A stretch of 64,000 nucleotides of DNA from contig JAJCZH010000005.1 in NCBI GenBank assembly GCA_029262515.1, positions 1 to 64,000 of the forward strand, given 5' to 3'. Origin of the DNA: Deltaproteobacteria bacterium (lineage in GTDB: Bacteria; Desulfobacterota; GWC2-55-46; JADFVP01). Below, piece after piece: positions 33,893-36,949 of this stretch; the stretch's first letter is position 1; each line of letters begins with the position of its first letter. The notes below the pieces were generated by a model, which saw only the letters and a program-made list of their open reading frames with translations, did no database searches and had not been told where the DNA came from. The translations under genes were made by a program, and so were the position numbers.

Positions 33893-34307
33893 CAACGCAT
33901 CCGTAGTTCAAGGCTCCTTCCTGTACGCCGCAATCCTTCAATACTCAAACAAGGTGTCCATTACTTCTGTAAACACTTAATCTACTTGACTCTAATAATC
34001 TGTTGATGTAATTTGCTTTGGACTCCATGTGTGCAGCTCAGTTGATTAATTATGGGTTGATAGCAGAGGTTCGCCGATTCATATAAGACGCCATGATAAA
34101 TACCCTAAGAAGTGCAAGTCGATAGTTTATAGTATTTTATCGCCTCAATCATCGTTGCACAAAAGGCATCTTATACGGACAGAATCTCTTGTTTCCGCGT
34201 CTTATGCGGATCCATATAAATATTGTTAGCTTCATGAAAGGCTTGATGATGTTACTGAAGCTGTGAGTTTTTTCAATTTTATTAGGCAGTTAACCGTTGG
34301 AGTCTGA
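33893..34307. other. AT-rich intergenic stretch at the left edge of the accessory region
   Basis: I see no gene or RNA gene here. It contains a 9-bp inverted pair ATAAGACGC (34083-34091) and GCGTCTTAT (about 34197-34205), a GTTAGCT heptamer at 34225-34231 and a GTTGGAG heptamer just before the next gene; the last two look like single integron core sites but no full attC surrounds them. Confidence 0.5.
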
Positions 34308-34973
34308 ATGCGACAACTGTTGATACATCGACGATTGACCTTTGTTCTCCAAGCAATATTGGTTGTGGAGGTCGTGGTTGCTACCTGGAATCAGCAGTGG
34401 CTTGCAGCTGTGGTCACATTTGGGATCATTGTAGTAACACTTTTCCCCCTCTTTCTGGGAAAGTTCTTTCGTGTCTTTATTCCTCCTGAGTTTGTATTAC
34501 TTGCGATTGCATTCATCTTTGCATCGCTATTCCTTGGTGAAATCCGTGGATACTACACCCGTTTCTGGTGGTGGGACATAGCCCTTCACTCCTGCTCTGG
34601 ATTTTTACTCGGGATTATTGGCTTCCTATTGGTGCATGTATTAAACGAAACAGAAGACATTGACGTACATATGAAATCTGGCTTTGTTGCCTTTTTTGCC
34701 TTCTTGTTCGCAGTTGGGCTAGGTGCTCTCTGGGAAATTTTTGAATTTAGTATGGATAGTTTTTTCAGCATGAACATGCAAAAAGAAATGTTCGGTGATC
34801 CTTCCGGGTTGACCGACACAATGTGGGATCTAATAGTCGATACTTTGGGAGCGTTGGTAATCACTGTGCTCGGCTACGGCTACGTCAAAACTGCCAGAAA
34901 CGAATCATTTTTGGAACGGTTGATTCAAACATTCATTAAGAGCAATCCACGGCTTTTTAATCGTCACCAATAG
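34308..34973 (+). CDS. DUF2238 (YjdF-like) membrane protein, cassette-borne
   Basis: A 221-aa integral membrane protein with about six hydrophobic segments. It carries the DUF2238-type signatures WWWDIALHSCSGFLLGIIGF, GLGALWEIFEFSMD and DTMWDLIVDTLGAL. Function of the family is unknown. The stop at 34973 is followed 31 bases later by an attC-like site, so it is the first cassette gene. Codon choice is more AT-rich than in the metK/ahcY block, which fits lateral gain. Confidence 0.82.
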   Translation: MRQLLIHRRLTFVLQAILVVEVVVATWNQQWLAAVVTFGIIVVTLFPLFLGKFFRVFIPPEFVLLAIAFIFASLFLGEIRGYYTRFWWWDIALHSCSGFLLGIIGFLLVHVLNETEDIDVHMKSGFVAFFAFLFAVGLGALWEIFEFSMDSFFSMNMQKEMFGDPSGLTDTMWDLIVDTLGALVITVLGYGYVKTARNESFLERLIQTFIKSNPRLFNRHQ

Positions 34974-35004
34974 ATTTTGCAAAGTTGATGGAACAAATTC
35001 ACCG

Positions 35005-35064
35005 AGCTAACAAGGCTAATTCAACCGACGCAAAAAGCTGCGCGTCTGATTAGCAACGTTAGCT
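35005..35064 (+). other. attC: attC recombination site 1
   Basis: AGCTAAC (35005-35011) and its exact complement GTTAGCT (35058-35064) form the outer core pair. Inside, GCTAAT (35015-35020) pairs with ATTAGC (35049-35054), and GACGC (35027-35031) with GCGTC (35042-35046). This is the R''-L''-L'-R' plan of integron attC sites; 60 bp is close to the shortest known class. Confidence 0.8.
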
Positions 35065-35075
35065 CTGGGAACAAT

Positions 35076-35405
35076 ATGTCAAAATGCACATACAACCTGA
35101 CCTTTGAGGTTTACGGTTACTCGAAAGAGCTGTCGGACCTCACAACATTGATCAAGAAAGCACTGTCAAAGTATTTGTCTCGCTGCTTAATTATCGTTAA
35201 GAAGACTTTTAAAGAATGGCGCAAGTGTCACATTTCTGGGTCGATAGAAGATGTGGATGCATGCCATATGCTATTCAACAAGGATTGCTTGCCACATCTC
35301 CACGTTGTACGCAGTCTCGACGAAGCAGGAGACAATATCTGTTCTCGAGCCTACCCCATCTTGTCACGAGCTGAACAACTGCTTCGAGGGTTCATAAATG
35401 GGTGA
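35076..35405 (+). CDS. Hypothetical cassette protein (109 aa)
   Basis: I do not recognise this protein. It begins 12 bases after the attC core, as cassette genes do, and encodes a soluble 109-aa protein with a basic, Leu-rich N-terminal half (LTTLIKKALSKYLSRCLIIV) and three His/Cys-containing stretches. No signal peptide or membrane span. No attC lies between it and the following broken gene, so both appear to share one cassette. Between the two genes, at 35422-35445, is a short hairpin (GGCCAACT with AGTTGGTC). Confidence 0.55.
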   Translation: MSKCTYNLTFEVYGYSKELSDLTTLIKKALSKYLSRCLIIVKKTFKEWRKCHISGSIEDVDACHMLFNKDCLPHLHVVRSLDEAGDNICSRAYPILSRAEQLLRGFING

Positions 35406-35455
35406 TGACGGATGTAGCGGGGGCCAACTGGTGAGGAAGTTGGTCGCCTTCTAAC

Positions 35456-36112
35456 GTGGATGAAAAGGCAACTGTGCGCAAATCGTCGTGCGCGAATGAC
35501 CACCAGATTGAGTTAGTAGACTTCACTGATCTTATGACTCTGTTATTTGCAGAGATTCAAGACTGGCTCGGCGATCATATCCTGTCTGCAAAAGATCTTG
35601 CAGATATTCTTTGTGGGACAGACGACCTTGGCGCGTGCAGGGCTCAAGTTGCCAAATGACTCACAAAACGGTCGGCGTGGAATGACACCTTCTTGCCGTA
35701 TATTATGGATGCCGATGCATGGGGCAAGCTGAAGAATGAGCTTGTCGCCATCATAATACCGATCCGACGCAGAGTAATGCACCATCGACCAGTACACCTC
35801 TATCACCTTGCGAAGGTGATAGGACACACCTGTAGTTTGCGCGAGTACCTCGGACATAGCCGACAGGCTATTGATGAGAAACAGCGCAACGAACTCCAAG
35901 ATATAAACAAGGAGATTACGCAGGCTCTACAAAGCTCAGTACCGAGACTTTATAGTGACCTCTTCGGTTCAACCGAGTGGGTGCAATCTCTGGCTAAGCA
36001 ACAAGAGGCTTTCCGAAAGAGCATTTCACCGTTTGCTGAGATACAGAAGGAATGGAAGAAGCAAATGAACCCTTGGCTCGAAATGGAGGAGCAGATGCGA
36101 AAGCAAACGTAA
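35456..36112 (+). pseudogene. Cassette gene interrupted by an in-frame TGA
   Basis: One continuous frame from GTG 35456 to the stop at 36112 is broken only by TGA at 35657-35659 (codon 68). Upstream are 67 residues (LSAKDLADILCGTDDLGACR near the break); downstream the frame stays open for 150 codons, with an ATG at 35705 (PYIMDADAWGKLKNELVAII) as a possible restart. The downstream part is amphipathic and charged, ending in a Gln/Lys/Glu-rich coil. I do not recognise the family. It may be a nonsense mutant, two separate proteins, or a sequencing error; recoding is least likely. Confidence 0.6.
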
Positions 36113-36155
36113 CCATTCAGACGTCTTCAGGCCCAATGGAAGAAGGATGTTGAGA

Positions 36156-36229
36156 AGCTAACAAAATGATTGAGATGGTTGCCTTATGGCGCTCCGCGCC
36201 AGCGACAACACCTCATCCAATCGTTACAG
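36156..36229 (+). other. attC: attC recombination site 2
   Basis: The left core AGCTAAC (36156-36162) is identical to that of site 1; the right core is GTTACAG (36223-36229). GATTGAGATG (36168-36177) pairs with CATCCAATC (36214-36222) leaving one unpaired base, GTTG (36178-36181) with CAAC (36206-36209), and the tip is GGCGC-TCC-GCGCC (36188-36200). The differing last bases are expected where a cassette joins chromosomal DNA, because recombination cuts inside the right core. Confidence 0.75.
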
Positions 36230-36367: not shown

Positions 36368-36949
36368 TCAGGCCGTCTTTGCCGCTTTTTCGGGCTGCTC
36401 CGTTTTGATCCGCCTGGAAAGAGCGTCGGCGCCGCCTACGTACTCGCCGTCCACCCATATCTGCGGCACGGTAACAGGGGTCTTGGCATCGATTAACGGT
36501 TTTACGCGAGCCATCATTTCGTAGAGCGCTCTCGGACTGCTGATTATATTGTGGTACCGGTACTCTATTTCAGCCTCTTGCAGTAACTCCTTGGCGCGCT
36601 TGCAGTGAGGGCAGCCCTCTTTACCGAACAGGTGCGTTCCGGTTACTCTGGAAGTTACGCAGTGACTCTTTATGACGGCCTCGGTAAAAACCCCTCGGTT
36701 TAACGCTACACCCTGAGAGAGCACGGAGCCGTCGACCATTACAATAGGGGCGTGCCAGCCCCCTTTTATAAGAGGTTTCCACCACTCGCTGAGCCACTCT
36801 CGCACCTCAAATTCGACAGGCACACCGGCAAGTTCGCTCTTCAGGGTATCTTGAATAACATCCTTTGTAATCGTGCACTCGCCGCACGGGATCTTTATCT
36901 TGAAAGGCCCCCACGAACCGGCCCACTTAAAAAGCGTTATCTTTACCAT
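36368..36949 (-). CDS. Two-domain glutaredoxin-like protein
   Basis: A 193-aa protein. The C-terminal half (about residues 103-180) is a glutaredoxin domain with redox motif CPHC in LFGKEGCPHCKRAKELL and the glutathione-binding pattern TVPQIWVDGEYVGGADAL. The N-terminal half starts with a beta strand and a CGEC motif (KIPCGECTITKDVI) and reads on with APIVMVDGSVLSQGVALNRG, which also looks like a thioredoxin-fold domain. No signal peptide. It is oriented against the neighbouring cassette cluster. Role as a thiol-disulfide reductase is inferred; the reason for the tandem is unknown. Confidence 0.8.
   Translation of the reverse strand: MVKITLFKWAGSWGPFKIKIPCGECTITKDVIQDTLKSELAGVPVEFEVREWLSEWWKPLIKGGWHAPIVMVDGSVLSQGVALNRGVFTEAVIKSHCVTSRVTGTHLFGKEGCPHCKRAKELLQEAEIEYRYHNIISSPRALYEMMARVKPLIDAKTPVTVPQIWVDGEYVGGADALSRRIKTEQPEKAAKTA

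Follow-up and report, generated by a model that had tools for sequence, protein, structure and literature searches.

Our analysis of a 64,000-nucleotide stretch of deltaproteobacterial DNA (the window) points with high confidence to an integron remnant without an integrase, in which a conserved leader, an attI-like site and a cassette stub are followed by one intact and one partly broken gene cassette, both ending in attC sites. The first-pass annotation had described the locus as a cluster of integron cassettes, a CALIN, at 34289-36229. The attC hits and the lack of an IntI hit support that description and the span is correct for the cassettes, but the attI-like site in front of them was missed, and the element begins further upstream, near 33905. 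Because this attI-like site precedes the cassettes, we favor an integrase-less integron that has retained its attI over a plain CALIN. All parts of the remnant described below lie on the + strand.

The remnant is flanked by ordinary housekeeping neighbors, with ahcY on one side and a glutaredoxin gene on the other. In a congener (G002), these two genes are directly adjacent, separated by ~157 bp, whereas the window has 2.56 kb at this position; hence, ~2.5 kb is an insertion. The same comparison disposes of the concern, voiced alongside the earlier cassette reading, that the gene order might be conserved vertically. The GC content of the cassettes is 0.43 and 0.48, compared to 0.53-0.54 in the flanking genes, and their codon usage is a poor fit, unlike that of the neighboring genes. 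The glutaredoxin gene (36368-36949, minus strand) encodes a 193-residue protein with a long N-terminal part; within the order, close relatives were confined to 4 of 39 genomes, those of the genus plus a single further one.

Two attC sites with the identical left core AGCTAAC lie where they had originally been placed. The first, attC1 (35005-35064), combines the R'' core AGCTAAC with the R' core GTTAGCT, which pair at all seven positions, with R'' position 2 deviating from the Y of the consensus RYYYAAC...GTTRRRY. The last site, attC2 (36156-36229), has the same R'' and the R' core GTTACAG; the latter pairs poorly, as expected for the final site of an array, and attC2 is a weak site. The distances of 31 and 43 bases between the stop codons (34973 and 36112) and R'' were given correctly in the first-pass annotation, as was the start of the genes about 12 bases past a core, the start codons at 34308 and 35076 lying 12 and 11 bases after a GTT core. 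The nested L''/L' pairing with unpaired bases was confirmed for attC1, as a bottom-strand fold with extrahelical bases. As single-stranded DNA, attC1 folds far more stably than its shuffles (z = -4.1 and -5.6 for the two strands), and attC2 does so more weakly (z = -3.3 and -2.9).

Scanning with Rfam returned no attC family at the locus, only chance microRNA matches, and we therefore built our own covariance models, excluding the window from both. Model R1 was based on 15 known sites, from plasmid class 1 and class 2 integrons and from integron loci of the phylum; run over the phylum's integron loci, it recovered 60 attC-like sites at E values of up to 1. Model R2 comprised 64 attC sites; it is home-made rather than that of IntegronFinder, and its E-values are rough. 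With R2 and filters off, attC1 (22.5 bits, E 0.0026; 19.3 bits with R1) and attC2 (17.8 bits, E 0.038) rank first and second in 50 kb, followed by a third-best match of 12.9 bits, so a covariance search does score attC. On the scale of the whole genome, neither score is significant alone, with ~0.1 and 2 matches, respectively, expected in 2.5 Mb. A genome scan with R1, in which part of the candidates was scored and the window's sites were not listed again, yielded one chance match of 15 bits (C38:60075), which was rejected since it lies inside coding sequence.

As these scores are only suggestive on a genome-wide scale, comparative evidence was needed. In blastn searches of plasmids, attC1 proved 86% identical to an attC in a class 1 integron of the Escherichia coli plasmid JML285_P1 (NZ_AP024115.1), where the order is intI1, a methyltransferase cassette and qacEdelta1 and the matching site lies right behind the gene of the methyltransferase cassette; this integron differs from the window's in being mobile, in having intI1 and in the gene that the cassette carries. 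At five places on the Desulforapulum autotrophicum plasmid pHRM2a, the identity is 85%. The attC behind the cassette 1 gene of a Desulfobacteraceae locus (L109) differs from attC1 at few positions, and relative to these close copies (JML285_P1, pHRM2a, L109) attC1 lacks two base pairs of the L arm. Marginal single-site scores across the genome would also fit a gene island with chance hairpins and no relation to integrons, but this reading is refuted by the homology of attC1 to attC sites of annotated integrons and by the attC that accompanies the cassette 1 gene in L109. We assign it practically no probability. The case for the attC sites rests on two co-oriented matches at gene ends, the DNA match of attC1 to annotated arrays and the empty site in the congener.

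What is the origin of the cassettes? Cassette 1 (34290-35058) extends from TTAACC... to the G of attC1, and its 5' end, GTTAACCGTTGGARTCTGA, is identical to that of a Desulfuromusa copy (L107), which has an attC-like stretch behind the gene. Its ORF (34308-34973) encodes a 221-residue, all-helical, DUF2238-like membrane protein; of 21 relatives, 20 give weak matches to PF09997, and the AlphaFold model (pLDDT 77.5) is nearly all helix. PDB and Foldseek searches with this protein returned nothing reliable and no solved relative. Relatives with 71-84% identity occur in genomes labelled Thermodesulfovibrionia, Desulfotignum, Delongbacteria, Desulfuromusa, Nitrospirota, Kangiella and others. In L109, the attC lies ~30 bp behind the gene, with more attC sites upstream in an array, and in a further locus (L103), the gene is followed by an attC within an array containing several PIN/VapC-like genes. 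Cassette 1 has thus spread horizontally, and judging from these sequences, it belongs to a mobile cassette lineage shared across phyla. The cassettes, earlier described as being of unknown function, are accordingly not all of unknown origin, cassette 1 being a clear example of a cassette gene that different phyla have in common. Relatives within the window's own phylum with 58-60% identity (L078-L081) were rejected as cassettes, with no attC adjoining. Other relatives of the protein include a diverged chromosomal one (29%) in the same genome (G000:C7:79652-80197) and four in sequences labelled Woesearchaeota or Nanoarchaeota (46-53%; L175, L176, L178 and L180).

Cassette 2 (35059-36223) begins at the GTTAGCTC core and ends with the G of attC2, its initial GTTAGCT being complementary to the R'' AGCTAAC of its own attC2. 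A first ORF of 109 residues (35076-35405) belongs to no family. The second gene (35456-36112, ~218 residues) contains an in-frame TGA at 35657-35659; since a single tblastn alignment, to a hypothetical protein of a Nostoc plasmid (23% identity, E 6e-8), crosses this codon, the region is most likely one broken gene. The gene has no Pfam match; by eye, its RRRVMHHRP motif is reminiscent of HEPN-domain proteins. Between the two ORFs (35422-35445), the paired cores GGCCAAC...GTTGGTC lie only 10 bases apart and could be an attC that collapsed in a cassette fusion. In front of cassette 1, between the GTT cores at 34225 and 34289, there is a 64-bp stub (34226-34289) with a 10-codon ORF and no attC left, probably an eroded first cassette.

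Upstream of the stub, two conserved elements follow each other. The leader (33905-34072) is common to the congener's contig C94 (~79% identity) and to contig C38 of the window's own genome (~69-79%). It contains TTGACT-17-TAATTT, conserved in the three copies, which may be a candidate cassette promoter (Pc) through which the leader would drive cassette expression; a promoter consensus scan found no excess of matches over shuffles. We had also considered the leader as a remnant of IntI and dropped this idea, as no IntI-like reading was seen by eye. The leader is followed by the attI-like site (34073-34230), which has 18-bp palindromic sites of the TTATRCNGATCNGYATAA type at both ends in addition to a half site, with the insertion point G^TT at 34225/34226. 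A profile HMM of seven copies, all from outside the window's genus, matches 34073-34230 at a score of 69.4 bits, with E=1.1e-20 for a search space of 64 kb. The right-end core, GTTAGCTTC, is complementary at 9 of 9 positions to R'' of attC2, GAAGCTAAC, and over 8 to that of attC1.

Elsewhere, the element measures ~150-160 bp, with its palindromic end sites 122-138 bp apart. In an IntI-bearing genome (G340), it is located 19 bp past the intI 3' end and immediately before the first cassette, which has a 22.5-bit attC, and a divergent version occupies the same place between intI and the cassettes in G232; the window's element is thus homologous to an intI-adjacent attI. It also recurs before attC-bearing cassettes without an adjacent integrase in several genomes, with strong attC sites (46-66 bits) 0.5-1.3 kb after the element in three cases (L204/L250, L206/L251 and L200/L252). 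In six of seven tested cases (G340, G232, G385, G166, G002 and the window), the right-end core shows complementarity of 9-10 bases to R'' of an attC behind the element; the core in G255 does not match its attC. No attC was found with the copy in G064. When used as a query, the leader of G002 gave short matches in genera of the phylum beyond its own, and the ~150-bp element surrounds these matches. The C94 locus of this congener has a shorter leader, followed by GTTGGGC, an ORF of ~100 codons and a 29.8-bit attC with the R'' GCCCAAC: a complete single cassette directly after the leader.

The element at 34073-34230 is most simply read as an attI of the co-directional type of integron, in which case the window and the congener loci would be attI sites with cassettes and without intI. 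A miniature inverted-repeat transposon (MITE) that came to lie beside the cassettes by chance would share several properties with the ~150-bp element, namely inverted 16-bp ends that are 81% identical, a spacing of the end sites within the same 122-138 bp in all copies, and absence from the short G002 leader, as for a mobile insert. Against a MITE stand the GTT core at a near-fixed distance past the right end in most copies, the attC whose R'' matches that core in all but one of the tested cases, and the position of two copies directly behind intI (G340 and G232); moreover, most copies elsewhere abut cassette cores, no copy was seen with a transposase, and only two copies were found in the 2.5-Mb genome. 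We regard a MITE, the main alternative for the element, as unlikely. An attI-like pattern match on a viral contig (L257) was rejected because it is coding sequence with no attC, and on plasmids the element was not found.

If the leader were unrelated intergenic DNA and the cassettes had been inserted at a secondary, attG-like site, the locus would be a plain CALIN with no attI. CALINs are known and common, more so than complete integrons (PMC9668308), and families f8 and f9 of the class likewise have dispersed attC sites but no IntI. Against this stands the conservation across genera of an element that abuts the cassette core, its position between intI and the cassettes in G340, and its recurrence before attC-bearing cassettes in other genomes. 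We therefore consider a plain CALIN unlikely and retain the interpretation of an integron remnant with an attI. Weighing against the latter are the weakness of attC2 with its poorly pairing R' core, the incompleteness of the stub as a cassette, the C38 and G064 copies of the element, for which no attC was found, and the mismatched core in G255; the attI is identified by position and sequence only, and the sampling of genomes is limited. As separate observations, six genomes of the same class (G127, G426, G427, G428, G430 and G431) contain 4-25 attC sites each, on many contigs, with no IntI over the cut-off, and their inspected cassette loci are mostly without an attI-like element.

That no intI is present, as initially noted for the locus, holds genome-wide: no protein in the 38 contigs reaches the TIGR02249 cut-off for IntI, the best candidates being XerD, which exceeds XerD's own cut-off, and a XerC-like protein. 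The genome is a draft (98.45% complete), and an intI gene could lie in its unassembled part. None of the 44 sampled genomes of the order has an IntI, while the cut-off is exceeded in 5 of 15 other class members and, across the phylum, 134 of 395 genomes have an IntI. We propose the following model. An IntI, either supplied in trans or formerly linked and since lost, would have joined the attC sites of cassettes, with their bottom strand folded, to G^TT within attI, most likely with 34225/34226 as the point of cassette insertion; such a site presumably is or was competent for recombination, and the unit may have arrived either with or without intI. The array would now be frozen and decaying, given that neither the genome nor the sampled order has an IntI. 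Signs of decay are the stub, the loss of two pairs in attC1, the nonsense codon in cassette 2 and the mismatched core of the last site, although a core of this kind would be expected in the final cassette of any array as well.

How does the locus compare to known systems? Like a CALIN as defined in IntegronFinder (PMC9024848), it has co-oriented, attC-ended cassettes, its two sites being ~1.15-1.2 kb apart where at least two close ones are called for, with no linked integron integrase either nearby or in the genome; the difference is that an attI-like site is kept before the cassettes. Of the features of a complete integron, intI is absent and attI is present by homology and position only. G340 and G232 show the same order of intI, attI and cassettes as the co-directional ("atypical") chromosomal integrons of Treponema, with intI likewise transcribed toward the cassettes, and loss of intI with remnant cassettes has been described in T. 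phagedenis (PMC3607928). The location of attI immediately downstream of intI in archaeal integrons (PMC9668308) is comparable to that in G340 and G232. Unlike in the Treponema and archaeal integrons, attI here is ~160 bp long with paired palindromic sites, and in the window a conserved leader replaces intI. Delta-attI-type cassettes of mobile integrons also feature attI-derived sites away from the platform, but there attI replaces the attC at the cassette end (PMC12901181), whereas here it is found upstream of normal attC cassettes.

New in the present case is a recognizable attI-like family that persists without an integrase, attI sites of this type being poorly described. Outside class 1, IntegronFinder omits the search for attI for that very reason (PMC9024848). 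The family can be recognized by an HMM across genera and is anchored by intI-bearing loci. It flags single cassettes that a search for attC clusters can miss, and opens the landing place of orphan cassettes in integrase-less genomes to a sequence search.

One may speculate, rather tentatively, that the ~160-bp attI sites form a phylum-wide family of solo landing pads with no linked integrase, present in multiple copies per genome and at loci that differ between congeners, each collecting one or a few cassettes through an integrase acting in trans or supplied by a passing element; if so, lineages without any IntI could still gain cassettes and express them at fixed expression sites. The second leader/attI copy in the window's own genome (G000:C38:68016-68246, corresponding to 5502-5830 of L195, minus strand) precedes a sodium:solute symporter gene (SSF, E 5e-48), behind which no attC was found. 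The 3' end of tmRNA is a usual insertion site of islands. ARAGORN called no tmRNA near the two other leader copies of the genus; by eye, L196 4711-4747 and L195 near 6000, at most ~0.6 kb from them, resemble a tmRNA 3' end (GGGGGTTCGACTCCCCC...).
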